From NCBI GenBank assembly GCA_002840355.1, contig PHAL01000019.1:1-40481 (forward strand): a DNA stretch of 40,481 nt. Direction: 5' to 3'. The notes below the pieces were generated by a model that was not told where the DNA came from, made no database searches, and saw nothing but the letters and a program-made list of their open reading frames with translations. The stretch is from Elusimicrobia bacterium HGW-Elusimicrobia-3. Its GTDB lineage: Bacteria; Elusimicrobiota; Elusimicrobia; Elusimicrobiales; UBA9959. Made by a program: the position numbers and the translations under genes. Every line of letters starts with the position of its first letter. Positions within the stretch are counted from its first letter, which is position 1. This document shows positions 6,049-19,240 of the stretch, one piece after another.

Positions 6049-7338
6049 CTAGAAACCGGTACGGCTGACGAAGTTGAAATCCTTTACCGTGATATGCGGC
6101 ATGGAGGTGTAGACCATCCCCTTCTCGCGCCCGATATCGACGGTGTTTTCCAGCAGGGCGAACACGCTCTGGTTGAACCTGAAGTTGTTGGCGCTGCCCG
6201 CCAAGCGTCCGTCTTTTATCTTAAACAGGCCGTCGCGCGTCATGCCCGTGAACACCGCGTCCATCTGGTCCACCTGGCGTATATACCAGAAACTGTTCAC
6301 GTACAGGCCGTTCTCGACCGACTTCACCAAGTCCTCCGCCGCGCGGTCCGTGCCGGCCAGGATCACGCTGCCCGGCGAGCCGCGGCCGGTGGCCAGGGCG
6401 CCCTTTTGGGCGGCATAGTAGCGCGAGTACCAGGGCTGAACGAGCTTGCCGCCGGCTATCATGTCGAACTCCGGGTACGGGGCGCCGTCGGCCGGCGAGA
6501 ACGGGCAGGGCGCCACCGGGTGGTCCGGGCGCGAATAGACGCGGATGCCGGGCGCGGCTATGACCCTGTCGCGCCGCGTCGACAGGGCGGTGCGCCCCTC
6601 GTCCATGGCCTTGGCGTCCATGTTGTAGCGCAGGAACATCAGCAGCAGCTCCTCCACCGCCGCCGGCGCCAGCACCACGGTATACCTGCCAGGCTCCAGC
6701 GGCGAGGGGTTGGCCGACAAGCGGGCTTTTTCCGACAGGCCGGCGATGAAGGTTTCCGGGGCGTAGTCGGCCAGGTCCCGCGAGTGAAAGGTGTCCTTGA
6801 ACGAGGAGTCGCCGGTCATGGCCGTGACGGCCAGCGCTGAGAAGCAGCCGGCGTTCGCCAGGCGCAGCCCGGCGCTGTTGTAAACCTCGTTATAATGCGG
6901 GTTCACCGACAGGCTGCCCGCCGCTTTCAGCCCGGCCGCCCGCAGCTCGCCGAAGAGCCGCTCCAGCATGCCGTATTTGACCTCGTCGGAGGGAAGGGAG
7001 AAAGGCTGATCGAGCTGTTTGATCCCGGCGGCCTCGGCCGGAGTGACCGGGGGCATGTACTCCGGGTCCCTGGGCAGCAGGCGCGCGGCCTCGTGCGCGC
7101 GGGCCACCGCCCGCCGCAGGCCCTCCTCGGAGGTATCGTTGGTCTTGCAGACGCCGGTGCGGCCGTCGCAGCCCACCTCCACCCGCGCCTCGCGCAGCGG
7201 GGCCTGCAGGTTCTCCCTGTTGACCGAGCTGTCGGAGAAGCGGATGAAATGCGTATCCCCTCCGGTGACGGCGATCACCACGTGGTCGGTCACGGGCCTG
7301 GCGAGGATCTTTTCTATCGCGGCGCGGGTGGCTTCCAT
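6049..7338 (-). CDS. tldE: TldE/PmbA-type subunit of the TldD-TldE metalloprotease
   Basis: 429 residues. TldE pairs with TldD to form a heterodimeric protease that degrades unfolded or modified peptides threaded into its cavity (known for microcin B17 leader removal and CcdA breakdown in E. coli). This protein has the family's overall organisation, including the C-terminal NNFRFNQSVF region and GAS/GSP loops, but no HExxxH motif, as expected for the non-catalytic partner. The ATG at 7338 has GGAGG close upstream and overlaps the tldD stop by one base (TAATG), so the two subunits are translationally coupled. The same frame is open to 7851, but that part lies inside tldD in another frame and was rejected. 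Confidence 0.88.
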   Translation of the reverse strand: MEATRAAIEKILARPVTDHVVIAVTGGDTHFIRFSDSSVNRENLQAPLREARVEVGCDGRTGVCKTNDTSEEGLRRAVARAHEAARLLPRDPEYMPPVTPAEAAGIKQLDQPFSLPSDEVKYGMLERLFGELRAAGLKAAGSLSVNPHYNEVYNSAGLRLANAGCFSALAVTAMTGDSSFKDTFHSRDLADYAPETFIAGLSEKARLSANPSPLEPGRYTVVLAPAAVEELLLMFLRYNMDAKAMDEGRTALSTRRDRVIAAPGIRVYSRPDHPVAPCPFSPADGAPYPEFDMIAGGKLVQPWYSRYYAAQKGALATGRGSPGSVILAGTDRAAEDLVKSVENGLYVNSFWYIRQVDQMDAVFTGMTRDGLFKIKDGRLAGSANNFRFNQSVFALLENTVDIGREKGMVYTSMPHITVKDFNFVSRTGF

Positions 7339-8774
7339 TATTTCGCCCTCCTTACCGTGACGCCGCGAAAGCGCGCCGGGCTGGCGCCGTGCGTCATCTG
7401 CGCCGACTGCATGGGGTCGCCCTTGCCGCAGGTTATGAACCCGGCCCGCCGGAAATAGCGCTCGTCGGCGATGGCGTCGCAGCTGCGCCAGAATTCGTAG
7501 GAGACGGCGTTGTAGACCACGTCCTTGAGCATGCCGGCCAGCTTCCCGTTCTTTATCTCCCAGAAAGCGTCCCCGCCGAACTGCATGTTCAGGCGCATCT
7601 GGTCTATGCTGAACGAGCCGCGGCCCTCGATGTAAATGCCGCTTTCGGTGCCGGCGATGAGCTCCTCGGTGGACAGCGGCTTGACGCCGGGGGCCAGGTA
7701 GAGGTTGGGGATGCGGGTGATTGGCGCGTCGAAATAGTTGGCCGCCCGCGTGGTGCCGTTGGCGCGGTCCCGCCCTATCTTGTGGGCCAGGTCCCGGCTG
7801 ACGCCGTAGCCGGAAAGGATACCGTCCTTGACCATGTGCCATTTCTGGCATTCCACGCCCTCGTCGTCGTAGCCCCAGCTGGCCAGCCCGCCCTCCAGCG
7901 TATTATCGGCGATAAAATTGACGATCTCCGAGCCGTAGCGGAAGCTGCCCAGTTTCTCGGTGGTGGCGAAACTGCGGCCGGCGCAGGACTCCTCGTAGCC
8001 CAGCACGCGGTCCAGCTCGGTAGGATGGCCGACCGACTCGTGCATGGTCAGCGCGAGGTGCTCCGGGTCCAGCACCAGCGTGGTCGGGCCCTCGGCGCAG
8101 GGCCTGGCGTAGCAGTGCTCCCGCGCCTGCTCGGCTATGCGCGCGGCGTTGCCTTCGAAATCGATGCCCCGGAAATATTCATAGCCGGCGTTCCTCGGGT
8201 CGGGCATGTAATGCCGGCCCTTTACCTCGCCGTTGGCCCTGGCGATGGCGTCGATCCTGGGCACCACGGTATAGATATCCGTCTCTATCAGCGAACCGTC
8301 GGTATTGGCGTAGCGGCGGCGCATGTTGCGCAGCACCGTCATGGTGCCGGCCTTTATGATATCCCGGCCCTTGAGTATTTTTTCGGAGACGGCCAGCATG
8401 GCGGCCACCGTCTCGGCGGGGCTCACCCCGAAAGGATCTTCCTTTATGCTGGTGGAGAACTTGTCTATGTGCCTGGGCTCGGGTGCGAGTTGCACGGCCT
8501 CCGCGGCGCTCCGGTCGGCGAGCCTGGCCAGCTCGAGGGCCCTGTCGGCGGCTTTCCTCAGCGCCCCGGGCGCCTTGTCGCGGGTGGAAGCGTAACCCCA
8601 GCCGTTGCCGCACAGCGCCCTGACGCCGGTGCCGGCCACCTCCTCCTCGGAGATATGCCGCACGCGCAGGTCCTCGGTGTGTATCTCGCGCTCGCGCACG
8701 GCCTGCTCGCGCACGTCCGCAAAACGCGCCCCTCCGCGCCTGAGATGGTCGATGATGTCGCTTAGGTGGTCCAT
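7338..8774 (-). CDS. tldD: TldD metalloprotease subunit
   Basis: 478 residues, the usual TldD length. The zinc motif HExxxH is present as HESVGH (His245, Glu246, His250), and a third likely ligand, Cys449, lies in GFITCGKG near the C-terminus, matching the His/His/Cys site known for TldD. The conserved EGRGSFSIDQMRL stretch precedes it. It is the catalytic partner of the downstream tldE. The ATG at 8774 has GGAG 9 bases upstream. The gene follows an intrinsic terminator hairpin at 8828-8858 and a strong promoter at 9189-9217, so its expression may depend on read-through of that terminator. A TATCAT -10-like box at 8799-8804 without a clear -35 could be a separate start. Confidence 0.92.
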   Translation of the reverse strand: MDHLSDIIDHLRRGGARFADVREQAVREREIHTEDLRVRHISEEEVAGTGVRALCGNGWGYASTRDKAPGALRKAADRALELARLADRSAAEAVQLAPEPRHIDKFSTSIKEDPFGVSPAETVAAMLAVSEKILKGRDIIKAGTMTVLRNMRRRYANTDGSLIETDIYTVVPRIDAIARANGEVKGRHYMPDPRNAGYEYFRGIDFEGNAARIAEQAREHCYARPCAEGPTTLVLDPEHLALTMHESVGHPTELDRVLGYEESCAGRSFATTEKLGSFRYGSEIVNFIADNTLEGGLASWGYDDEGVECQKWHMVKDGILSGYGVSRDLAHKIGRDRANGTTRAANYFDAPITRIPNLYLAPGVKPLSTEELIAGTESGIYIEGRGSFSIDQMRLNMQFGGDAFWEIKNGKLAGMLKDVVYNAVSYEFWRSCDAIADERYFRRAGFITCGKGDPMQSAQMTHGASPARFRGVTVRRAK

Positions 8775-8827: not shown

Positions 8828-8858
8828 AAAAGCGAGAGCCCCCGTAAGCGGGGGCTCT
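8828..8858 (-). terminator. Intrinsic terminator between the A-depleted RNA and tldD
   Basis: Perfect 10-bp stem AGAGCCCCCG/CGGGGGCTCT (8835-8844 and 8849-8858) with a 4-base loop. On the minus strand it is followed by CGCTTTTATA, a slightly displaced U tract. It would end leftward transcripts started at the promoter near 9189-9217, or act as an attenuator for tldD 54 bases further on. Confidence 0.7.
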
Positions 8859-9182
8859 TCACTCTGGCACCGGCCAGACACTGCACACTGCGCTGGGGGA
8901 GGGCCGGGGGACCGACGGGGCACGAAACGCCGCCGAAGGGCCGGGACTCCCGCCCGGGAGCCGGGCGCCGAACGCGCCGCTGAGAACCGGGCACCCCGGG
9001 GGACCGCCCTGCCAGAAGCAGACCAGCGGACCGGGGAAGAAACGCGCCAGGGCCGGGGCAACCCCGAACCGACCAAGAACCGGGCCCGACCGCACCGCAA
9101 CCGAACCAGACCGCACCAGACCAGACCGCAACCGCGGGGCCCGAACCGAAACCGGCGCAACCGATATAGAGAGCTGAACTAC
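8828..9182 (-). ncRNA. Putative A-depleted structured RNA or tldD leader (undescribed)
   Basis: A 355-base unit delimited by a near-consensus promoter (9189-9217) and an intrinsic terminator (8828-8858). In transcript sense, A is almost absent from about 9160 to 8890, while G, C and U are abundant. The body is rich in GGTTGCGG, GGTCTGG and TTCGG words, including two copies of GCGGTCTGGT (plus-strand 9105-9114 and 9120-9129), and holds short hairpins such as GGCGC/GCGCC with a UUCG-like loop and CTCCC/GGGAG. It does not look like SRP RNA, RNase P RNA, tmRNA or 6S RNA: the A-containing signature words of the first three are missing. Reading frames through it are open only because stop codons need A. 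The cis-leader and free-RNA readings are both possible. Confidence 0.5.
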
Positions 9183-9188
9183 ATATCG

Positions 9189-9217
9189 AGTATAGCAGGC
9201 GCTCCTTGACTTGTCAA
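9189..9217 (-). promoter_or_regulatory. Near-consensus sigma-70 promoter of the A-depleted RNA
   Basis: On the minus strand, TTGACA (complement of 9212-9217), a 17-base spacer, then TATACT (9189-9194); predicted start near 9182. This is the best housekeeping promoter seen in the window. The -35 lies in a palindrome, CCTTGAC-TT-GTCAAGG (9204-9219), so a second -35 (TTGACT, 9206-9211) faces right, with TATATT at 9231-9236. The palindrome could be an operator, or simply two promoters back to back. Confidence 0.7.
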
Positions 9218-9285
9218 GGGGTGGCTTAAATATATTTTTTCACGTCGGAGAAATAGTTTTTTCAGCCTCCGCTTGCGCTTAAGAA

Positions 9286-9317
9286 TAAAGAGACCCGCTT
9301 TTCGCGGGCCTCTTTTT
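9286..9317. terminator. Bidirectional intrinsic terminator after the GH104-like gene
   Basis: Stem AGAGACCCGC (9289-9298) with GCGGGCCTCT (9304-9313), one mismatch, loop TTTTC. On the plus strand it is followed by five T; on the minus strand by TTATTCTT. It serves the leftward gene ending at 9335, and could also end any rightward transcript started at the opposing promoter near 9206-9236. Confidence 0.75.
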
Positions 9318-9334: not shown

Positions 9335-10273
9335 TTAGTACTTGGCCAGGGCGGCGCGGTAGACGCGCCACAGCTGGGCGGTGGAGTGGGTGGGCTGGCC
9401 GTAGGGGCTGCCCGGCAGCGAGGCCCAGGTGCGGTTCAGTTTGCTCAGCGCTGAGGTAAAATTTTCGTAGACGCTGGAGCGCAGCACCCGGTTATAGGCG
9501 CCGGCGCGGCGTATGATCTCCAGCGTGGCCTTCTCCTGGTTGGGAGGGGTGAAGTCGCGCAGGCCCAGCGCGGAGGCGAGCGGGTCCCAGGTCTTGGCGA
9601 GGAACTGGTACCGGCCGGCGGCTGTGGAGCAGAGCCTGCCCGCGCATTTCTTTACGCGGGGGTGGTCCCCGTAATTATCGAAAGGGACGAAGGTGAAGAT
9701 ATAATTATAATTGGCTTTAGTTCCCTCGGCGTAGGCCAGCGTGTCGAGGAAAGCGTGCACGGTGCGGGGCAGCTCCCACGCGCCGCCGGCGGAGCTGGAA
9801 GAGACGTGGGGCATATACACATAGCCGGCGGCCAGTGAGCAGCCGGGCAGCGGCGCGGCCAGCTGCACCGTCATATGTTCGCCCTCGAAACCGGGCACCG
9901 AGGCAGCGGCGTAGCGGGTATGAGGGGTCAGGCCGCACTTGCCGGTGCCGGGCGCCAGGTCTTCGGCCTGGCCGGGGAAGGCCTTAAGGAAAGAGGCTTC
10001 CGCGCCGATATAGATGAACTGTTCCGCGGTGCCGTCGTCGCTCTTGCTGAAGCTTTCCCACTCGAAGCCGGGCTCGTCGTTATCCGGGGGCAGGTACTGC
10101 TCGGGCTCGGCCTCTGTCCCGTCCGCGGCCGGCAAGGGCAGGGACAGTTCGGGCAGCGCGGCCGCTTCGGTCCCGCCGTAGCGCAGCAGCTCGTCGAGCG
10201 CCTGGGCGGAAACGCGCAGCGGCAGCAGGGCCGACGCGAGCAGGATCAGGGGGAAAAGGTTTATCCTCGCCAT
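9335..10273 (-). CDS. Secreted protein with lambda-R-like (GH104) lytic domain
   Basis: 312 residues. A signal peptide (about residues 1-23, ending RVSAQA) precedes a poorly conserved acidic region and a compact domain with two Cys. The C-terminal half (about residues 165-300) closely recalls phage lambda endolysin R: AFLDTLAYAEGT with the catalytic-type Glu, then DHPR, STAAGRYQFLAKTWD, LGLRDFTPPNQ and WASLPGSPYGQ. Lambda R is a lytic transglycosylase that cuts the MurNAc-GlcNAc bond of peptidoglycan and forms 1,6-anhydro ends; I infer the same chemistry in the periplasm here. No holin, spanin or other phage gene is nearby, so a host role in wall turnover, or an exported antibacterial role, is more likely than lysis. 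Ribosome site weak (AGGTATG). Confidence 0.8.
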   Translation of the reverse strand: MARINLFPLILLASALLPLRVSAQALDELLRYGGTEAAALPELSLPLPAADGTEAEPEQYLPPDNDEPGFEWESFSKSDDGTAEQFIYIGAEASFLKAFPGQAEDLAPGTGKCGLTPHTRYAAASVPGFEGEHMTVQLAAPLPGCSLAAGYVYMPHVSSSSAGGAWELPRTVHAFLDTLAYAEGTKANYNYIFTFVPFDNYGDHPRVKKCAGRLCSTAAGRYQFLAKTWDPLASALGLRDFTPPNQEKATLEIIRRAGAYNRVLRSSVYENFTSALSKLNRTWASLPGSPYGQPTHSTAQLWRVYRAALAKY

Positions 10274-17645: not shown

Positions 17646-18998
17646 TTAGCCCTGGTTATTAACAGCCTTAATCTTTGTGATTATCTGATTAAGGGTCTCG
17701 TTGAAATAGGGGTCGGTCTGCACCATATGGCCGATCTTGCCCTTGGCGTGCAGCACGGTGGCGTGCTCGCGGCCGAAAGCGTCCCCGATCTCCTTGAGCA
17801 CCATGTCCGTCATCTCGCAGGCCAGGTACATGGCCACCTGGCGGGGGAAGGCCACGGCCTCGTTGCGCTTCTTGGAATTGAAGTCCCGCATCTCCACGCT
17901 GTATTTCTCGGCCACCACCCGCTTTATGGTCTCGACCGGGATTTTCTTCTCTTCCAGGTCGTGGTCGCTGATGTGGTCCTTGATGATCTCGCGGACGGCG
18001 TCGATGGAGGGCTGTATGCGCATGTTGGAGCAGAAATTGCCCACCGTGATCAGGCAGCCTTCCAGCTCGCGGATGTTCTTCTTGACGTTCTCGGCGATGA
18101 AGGTGATGATGTCGTCGGGTATGTCGTAGGTGTGCTGGTCGCGCTTCTGGCGCAGGATGGCCACGCGCGTTTCGAAATCGGGGATCTTGATGTCGGCCAC
18201 CACGCCGGACAGGAAGCGGGAGATCAGGCGCTGCCCCAGCGCGAGTTCGCGGGGCGGCCGGTCGGAGGTGACCACCACCTGCTTCTTGGACTCGAACAGC
18301 GAGTTGAAGGTGTAGAAGAATTCCTCTTCGCTGCGTTCCTTGTCGACGAGGAACTGGATGTCGTCGAGCAGCAGGCAGTCGAGCTTGCGGTACTTGCTGC
18401 GGAACTGCTCGGTCACGCCGCCGCGCACCGCGTCGATGTACTCGTTGACGAAGTTCTCGCTGGCGGTATAGAGGATGCGGGCGGCCGAGTTCTTCTTCAT
18501 GATGCCGTGCGCGATGGCGTGCAGCAGGTGGGTCTTGCCCAGGCCCGGCGGGCTGTAGATGAAGAAAGGGTTGGTCTGGCCCGGGTTGTTGGAGACGCCC
18601 TCCGCCGAGGCGAAGGCGAAGCGGTTGGACGTGCCCATGATGAAGGACTCGAAAGTGTAGTGCGGATTGAAAGAATAATAGTTGGCCGGCAGCGCTATCG
18701 CCGCGGGCGCGGCCTTGGACTGAGGCGGCGGCTCCGACGGGGCCAGCGACATGGAATAATTGATCTTCAGCGCGCGGCCGGTGAGCTCGGCCAGCAGCGC
18801 CGTGATCTTCTCCTCGTAGCGCTGCTTGACCGTATTGTAAATTATAGAGTCGGGAACTTCCAGTTTGAGGGTATCGCCCTCTATGAAAATAGGCTTAATC
18901 GGGCGTATCCAAAGGTCGACCGTCTGAGAACCTATGTCCTCATTGAGTTTCTTTATTACTTCCGGCCAGATTTCTTTGATATCGGTTAAGTTATCCAC
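17646..18998 (-). CDS. dnaA: Chromosomal replication initiator DnaA
   Basis: 450 residues. DnaA binds 9-bp boxes at oriC and opens the duplex. Domain I is at the N-terminus (IWPEVIKKLNEDIG), then a Pro/Ala linker, then the AAA+ domain with Walker A PPGLGKTH (Lys155) and Walker B LLLDDIQFL, and the C-terminal box-binding domain with EIGDAFGREHATVLHA. The start is GTG at 18998: an in-frame TAA lies two codons upstream and no ATG fits the family N-terminus. This GTG is inside a perfect DnaA box, and no Shine-Dalgarno sequence is visible, so DnaA bound there would cover its own start region. Confidence 0.96.
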   Translation of the reverse strand: MDNLTDIKEIWPEVIKKLNEDIGSQTVDLWIRPIKPIFIEGDTLKLEVPDSIIYNTVKQRYEEKITALLAELTGRALKINYSMSLAPSEPPPQSKAAPAAIALPANYYSFNPHYTFESFIMGTSNRFAFASAEGVSNNPGQTNPFFIYSPPGLGKTHLLHAIAHGIMKKNSAARILYTASENFVNEYIDAVRGGVTEQFRSKYRKLDCLLLDDIQFLVDKERSEEEFFYTFNSLFESKKQVVVTSDRPPRELALGQRLISRFLSGVVADIKIPDFETRVAILRQKRDQHTYDIPDDIITFIAENVKKNIRELEGCLITVGNFCSNMRIQPSIDAVREIIKDHISDHDLEEKKIPVETIKRVVAEKYSVEMRDFNSKKRNEAVAFPRQVAMYLACEMTDMVLKEIGDAFGREHATVLHAKGKIGHMVQTDPYFNETLNQIITKIKAVNNQG

Positions 18999-19010
18999 AA
19001 GTTATCCACA
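18991..19010 (+). promoter_or_regulatory. Two tandem consensus DnaA boxes over the dnaA start
   Basis: TTATCCACA occurs at 18991-18999 and again at 19002-19010, in the same orientation with an 11-bp period. Both match the E. coli consensus exactly. The first spans the dnaA GTG codon. Weaker TTATTAACA sites lie on the minus strand near 19012-19021 and 19067-19076. Confidence 0.9.
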
Positions 19011-19240
19011 ACTGTTAATAAGGTTTTCTGGGGTATATAAAGTGCTTGTATTATATGACTTTATTGTGTTAATAACTTCTTTTGCCAGCTGCTGTACTAT
19101 CAATTTAAGGCGTAAAAAGTTCGCAAAAAGGTGAAAGAAAACAGCTATAAAGGGGCTCAAAAAGGGCCTTTTTTATAGGATATCTATAATATTATATATT
19201 TTATAAGGCGTAGTCAATATTAAAGGGCTGCTCCTTGTAT
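19011..19240. other. AT-rich putative oriC / unwinding region
   Basis: No gene lies between dnaA and the radical SAM gene. This stretch is far more AT-rich than its surroundings, ending in a run of A/T at about 19177-19208 (ATATCTATAATATTATATATT). A GGCTC/GGGCC hairpin with six T on the plus strand lies at about 19154-19176. AT-richness next to tandem DnaA boxes, plus the strand switch of genes nearby, makes it the best oriC candidate here. A GGGGGGC/GCCCCCC hairpin (19241-19257) follows at the radical SAM gene end. Confidence 0.6.

Follow-up and report, generated by a model that had tools for sequence, protein, structure and literature searches.

The window, by which we mean the whole stretch of 40,481 nucleotides of Elusimicrobia DNA that was analyzed, carries on its minus strand a transcription unit that almost lacks adenine and lies upstream of tldD. 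This locus raises the question of whether the unit encodes a free structured small RNA, made from an abundantly used and regulated promoter, or a long 5' leader (attenuator) controlling the TldD-TldE protease; the original prediction had proposed both. In our main reading, to which we assign a probability of about 60%, the unit would give rise to a structured non-coding RNA of ~350 nt that is transcribed on its own and ends in a terminator, a paralogue within a multi-copy trans-acting family, which would serve as a palindrome-regulated protein hub. The locus is organized as follows, mostly in the order of transcription.

9335-10273, minus strand: upstream gene, secreted homologue of the phage-lambda-R-type lysozyme (phmmer to 3d3d/1am7, E 2e-20)
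9285-9315, minus strand: terminator of the lysozyme gene, between that gene and the RNA (fold -21.6 kcal/mol, z -6.9)
9219-8828, minus strand: complete transcription unit, with extended -10 promoter, palindrome on the -35, A-poor body and perfect terminator
9226-9240, minus strand: A/T-rich, UP-element-like tract 5' of the -35 (sequence, family base composition)
9204-9219, minus strand: palindrome CCTTGACAAGTCAAGG spanning the -35, a putative operator (perfect 7-bp palindrome)
9189-9217, minus strand: extended -10 promoter TTGACA-17-TATACT (sequence; TG precedes the -10)
9163-9183, minus strand: conserved A-containing 5' end, family consensus UGUAGUCYUGAUCUYUU (alignment of 20 copies; common to all types)
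9152-9159, minus strand: 5' arm UGCGCCGG of a long-range stem (RNAalifold, columns 63-70 with 301-308)
9051-9151, minus strand: repeat domain of variable length with GGUNNGG and UGCGGU words and zero A (base counts, alignment, word counts)
9043-9050, minus strand: 3' arm CUGGCGCG of the long-range stem (RNAalifold)
8994-9036, minus strand: conserved hairpin C (model R1, covariation)
8953-8991, minus strand: conserved hairpin D (structure-model alignment, covariation)
8895-8952, minus strand: conserved hairpin E (structure-model alignment, covariation)
8864-8877, minus strand: small 3' hairpin CUGGCCGGUGCCAG (sequence, typed alignment)
8828-8862, minus strand: intrinsic terminator GUGAAGAGCCCCCG-loop-CGGGGGCUCUCGCUUUU (fold, conservation, stem-base covariation)
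7338-8774, minus strand: tldD, a PmbA/TldD protease (Pfam PF19289 and PF01523)

The elements that had been predicted from the letters of this region were borne out. The near-consensus promoter (9217-9189) matches the consensus at 11 of 12 positions, with ~0.6 chance sites expected in the 5.5 kb scanned, and the palindrome over its -35 is a perfect 7-bp one (9219-9204). The transcript would start near 9182. At the other end, the perfect 10-bp terminator predicted at 8828-8858 has its stem at 8858-8835, followed by a T-run, and a folding energy of -24.8 kcal/mol (z -6.6). Between them, the stretch of about 300 nearly A-free bases proved to be an RNA body (9182-8859) with 13 A in 324 nt (4.0%), including 154 nt without any A (9164-9011). 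Counted over 300 nt, the minimum of A on the minus strand of the window, 7, falls in this body; the mean is 56, and the next-lowest non-overlapping stretch has 15. Elsewhere in the window, positions 18906-19210 between predicted ORFs form an AT-rich stretch that is the lowest in both G and C. Since the upstream lysozyme gene ends in its own terminator (9315-9285), the RNA unit stands alone on that side.

The tldD gene does follow the unit, as originally described, but its ATG (8774) lies ~54 bases beyond the RNA terminator, where a ribosome site had been placed at 50 bases, and by eye the gene seems to have an extended -10 of its own, TGCTATCAT, past that terminator. The same spacing in a second genome (G014) is what the leader reading has in its favor. 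However, the N-terminus of tldD lies 3' of the RNA in only two of 20 loci (the window and its nearest relative), the same syntenic group elsewhere precedes different genes, and family copies occur at many loci, where they precede unrelated or convergent genes. A leader or attenuator of tldD is therefore not supported, as placement of the RNA upstream of tldD is not conserved among the 20 loci; as a general function it is refuted by synteny, and overall we regard it as highly improbable.

The distribution of related sequences points to a family of free RNAs. When 61 whole genomes were searched by blastn, nearly every genome of the genus proved to carry relatives, in many cases more than one; the 13-base sequence CTTGACAAGTCAA and most terminator bases do not vary among the 20 best-matching loci. 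The palindromic promoter pattern was found in 32 of 32 genus genomes, with 0-1 in controls, and its transcripts fall into two clean classes, 71 that are A-poor (1.7-12% A) and 47 others (18% A or more). By our tally, the 71 A-poor copies come from 31 of the 32 genomes, in a census that is partly circular as its copies were collected by the promoter; the blastn and structure-model sets are independent of it. The number of divergent paralogues in a genome ranges from 1 to 6 or more. These counts may be too low, as several copies are located at contig ends or very close to them (L007, L012, L054, L120, and L057 at the end of contig C13 of the own genome); GC-rich hairpins or paralogues of this RNA may break assemblies. 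In G013, two A-poor RNAs stand in tandem 0.8 kb apart (L081:1301-2600), which suggests a recent duplication. The paralogue groups occupy fixed gene neighborhoods, namely after the lysozyme gene (17 loci, the arrangement in most of the genus), after polysaccharide deacetylase (18) and RecQ (8), and near a cyclase, these neighbors being identified by Pfam for the deacetylase and RecQ and by eye for the cyclase. The hosts are groundwater and lake bacteria from one Elusimicrobia family.

With a structure model trained on this genus alone, two sister genera yielded five RNAs scoring 82-110 bits. All five have the terminator on their 3' side and the palindromic promoter on their 5' side, the promoter carrying a single mismatch in one RNA and a variant -10 in another. 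Matches to the model in 295 genomes of the phylum were confined to three genera of the one family. Two further genera have A-poor, UGCGGU-rich transcripts from the palindromic promoter that this model missed (L182-L184, and L166, whose palindrome has one mismatch). No Rfam 15 family reached the gathering threshold for the A-poor RNA, none of the searched databases describes it, and in the open-access literature we found no paper on an A-poor or Elusimicrobia-specific structured RNA.

In the alignments, the 5' segment is conserved and a long-range stem encloses the repeat domain of variable length; hairpins C, D and E, the 3' hairpin and the terminator follow. A covariance model was built on C-D-E, against which positions 8887-9036 score 94.6 bits (model R1), and 61 matches were aligned. 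On this alignment, which leans somewhat to its own model, the structure of 46 pairs has 89.6% standard pairs. Two-sided changes affect 21 pairs, where shuffles give 11.6, and 82 cells, where shuffles give 34; none of 500 shuffles was as high in either measure. Structures slid by 1-3 columns pair at ~50%, with at most 17 pairs and 36 cells changed on both sides. Independently of the alignment, covariation between types is seen at the foot of the terminator stem (GUGA/UCGC, AUGA/UCAU, AUUGA/UCAAU), and the sister-genus matches are likewise independent. Thermodynamic stability is no better than that of dinucleotide shuffles (z -0.55), which is uninformative because it is expected for such GC-rich sequence. 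Formation of G-quadruplexes by the GGUNN repeats was rejected, as in the folding model a quadruplex was gained in only 3 of 68 RNAs. From these patterns of sequence change, the A-poor RNA is almost certainly a structured RNA family.

The same comparisons bear on what kind of RNA this could be. That it is a coding gene, a mobile repeat or a phage element is the least probable of all readings: all reading frames are open because stop codons contain A, and some copies lie at contig ends, but most indels in the compared close pairs are not multiples of three, the loci are syntenic, no phage record matches, and the terminator motif occurs in no viral contig. The coding reading and a phage or viral origin were rejected on these grounds. 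A structural role, as the scaffold of a ribonucleoprotein or as an RNA-only assembly like OLE, ROOL and GOLLD, would suit a long, strongly structured RNA with long-range closing stems and a strong promoter. Ornate large RNAs are able to form RNA-only complexes (PMC12286853), and the A-poor RNA shares with OLE, ROOL and GOLLD its independence, its many helices and its lack of an assigned role. We nevertheless consider a structural role unlikely, since length and repeat domain vary widely among orthologues, genomes contain several divergent paralogues, and the A-poor RNA is shorter, multi-copy, poor in A and without any sequence or structure relation in Rfam.

We also considered a disguised housekeeping RNA, in the first place the missing 6S RNA, given that RF00013 was not recognized in any of 41 Elusimicrobia genomes and that the A-poor RNA has a strong promoter and, like 6S, looks constitutive. 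Against this stand the absence of an RF00013 match, an architecture without the single long bubble hairpin, the multiple copies, and the restriction to some genera of one family, so that this identity is very doubtful. RNase P, unlike 6S, was found as usual, in nearly all Elusimicrobia genomes checked.

The missing adenine itself calls for an explanation. Functional RNAs normally have A in loops and junctions, and A rather than U usually dominates the unpaired positions of structured RNA. In the A-poor RNAs this pattern is reversed, with 43% U and 11% A at unpaired positions. Averaged over copies, the A content falls from ~20% upstream to 4-5% from ~25 nt past the start and returns to ~20% directly after the terminator. 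For comparison, A makes up 21-23% of RNase P RNA in two genus genomes and ~24% of the 47 other transcripts of the palindromic promoter; GC content and transcription from this promoter therefore do not explain the loss. One could suppose a mutational footprint: R-loops formed by the G-rich transcript would leave the non-template strand exposed, and this strand would lose A in favor of T and G, the RNA itself being perhaps ordinary. The sharp end of the depletion at the transcript boundaries and the G/T-rich repeat domain would fit, but C is not depleted (30-36%), A is retained in the 5' end and the terminator, no such depletion is seen in the 47 other transcripts that share the promoter, and A stays rare in four other genera, all of which makes this account rather improbable.

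The simplest reading of the depletion is selection against A in loops. If selection excludes A from the RNA body, the loops would consequently be U-rich, the body would hold hardly any Shine-Dalgarno site or ATG, and few sites would be left for nucleases that recognize A. A more speculative extension, which we hold to be possible rather than likely, is that the near-absence of one base is the functional property itself: structured, U-looped, A-free RNAs under one palindromic promoter keep their low A content in at least five genera even as the remaining sequence is rewritten, and they may thereby escape A-dependent recognition by ribosomes, nucleases or RNA-binding proteins, or allow synthesis and upkeep when A or ATP is limiting. 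An RNA that is conserved, covarying and present in several copies, yet avoids A for hundreds of bases, departs from the usual make-up of loops and junctions and provides a natural case in which to test the reasons for the use of A.

As read from the sequences, each RNA has its own strong promoter and terminator and a conserved secondary structure, and several paralogues per genome sit at fixed loci under the shared palindromic promoter. As the RNA occurs at several loci, with its own terminator and no fixed downstream gene, it very probably acts in trans, and in the best reading of its sequence it would be abundant. Its most persistent sequence feature, besides the RNA ends, is the word UGCGGU. 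The repeated GGTTGCGG and GGTCTGG words noticed at the outset are present, and family-wide UGCGGU is enriched about ten-fold under a first-order model, with 208 occurrences in the genus (21 expected) and 38 in other genera (3 expected), 31 of the latter in four RNAs that the structure model did not recognize. Repeated words on a structured frame form the pattern that a protein-binding hub would show. In the proposed mechanism, many UGCGGU/CGGU words would be displayed on a rigid G-C/G-U scaffold for protein binding.

Which protein might bind is suggested by the gene content of the hosts. Hfq was not found in 11 genomes, nor was CsrA in the own genome, where positive controls were detected; RRM-RGG proteins are therefore candidate partners. 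The own genome encodes two RRM proteins with glycine/arginine-rich (RGG) tails (G000:C34:1768-1977 and G000:C5:27251-27460; L198 and L199), and RRM proteins are near-universal in the family. Their presence, however, is not tied to that of the RNA, as they also occur in genera in which no A-poor RNA was found. Moreover, in the folding predictions the CGGU words are no more unpaired than the sequence around them (0.32 and 0.31, respectively), and slippage in the repeats could lead to word enrichment in the absence of any function. The status of a structured RNA family is well supported, and the function is what we infer from these patterns; taken by itself, the assignment as a protein-binding hub or sponge is tentative. 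The short repeated word on stem-loops and the variable number of its copies recall the protein-sequestering CsrB/RsmZ RNAs, whose word is GGA rather than UGCGGU. A sponge of that type is not supported, with GGA occurring 85 times against 171 expected over 68 RNAs and CsrA not found in the own genome.

The strongest rival to the protein hub is an antisense model, in which the conserved 5' segment would act as a seed for base pairing to mRNAs, with the A-poor body as a stable scaffold. In Bacteroides, the RRM protein RbpB binds the FopS family of 14 paralogous sRNAs (PMC11697453). The A-poor RNA appears similar to that system in its many paralogues per genome, each with its own promoter, in a host with an RRM-1 protein, and in the failure to find Hfq. 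It differs in its length of ~350 nt, its high degree of structure, its near lack of A, the palindrome over the -35 and the phylum of its hosts, the two having been compared by description. The 5' segment is kept in all types and the repeat domain is not, which favors a seed, as do the FopS-like paralogues and RRM protein. On the other hand, the predicted structure pairs UGUAG of this segment with the 3' end of the RNA, and seed sRNAs are as a rule shorter than 350 nt. We consider the antisense model possible but less likely than the protein hub.

The protein hub, as we propose it, would be under common control with other products. Within the family, 53 of 59 genomes and 11 of 13 genera have the palindromic promoter (TTGACAAGTCAA-N8-TGYTATA). 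Its further products are an RNA of ~90 nt with its own terminator, which in most cases precedes a formiminotransferase-like gene, and an mRNA for a membrane-anchored protein. The two reference loci are the following.

L059:1528-1630: second small RNA family, GGACGCC..GGCCUCCAACUGUGAACUCCCCGAA..GGGGAAGCGAAAACCCGCC terminator (also L050, L083, L103, L113, L116, L129, L134, L137, L145, L147 and L154)
L076:1535-1640 (own genome, C22): conserved 5' UTR CUUUGACCUGAACGCCC..GGGCUGUGUCAGGAAAGUU behind the same palindromic promoter (also L058, L065, L067, L068, L070 and others)

The ~90-nt family has no Rfam match above threshold and the membrane-anchored protein no Pfam match; the conserved 5' UTR of its mRNA may act in cis as a regulatory element. 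The promoters of the A-poor copies have an A/T-rich tract that those of the others lack: over the 40 nt 5' of the -35, A+T is ~55% in the 71 A-poor copies and ~39% in the 47 other transcripts. The bare palindrome 12-mer occurs 4 to 11 times per genome in the nine genus genomes searched, and therefore not every palindrome is such a promoter. The second half of the palindrome is kept though an ordinary promoter does not need it, which argues for a DNA-binding regulator, and from this conservation the A-poor set is probably regulated through the palindrome. A putative regulator binding CTTGACAAGTCAAG would turn the A-poor RNA, the ~90-nt RNA and the membrane-protein mRNA on or off.

Together with the conservation, the covariation and the copies at many loci, this regulon supports the earlier suggestion of a free structured RNA with an abundantly used, regulated promoter. 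Across a family of Elusimicrobia MAGs, in which neither Hfq, CsrA nor a recognizable 6S RNA was found in the genomes checked, the palindromic promoter joins a membrane protein with two RNA families in one regulon. A third RNA type stands behind this promoter in other genera (GAGGGAGGC ... GGGAGCGCGAAA/TTTCGCGCTCCC terminator; L167, L169, L170, L174 and L195).
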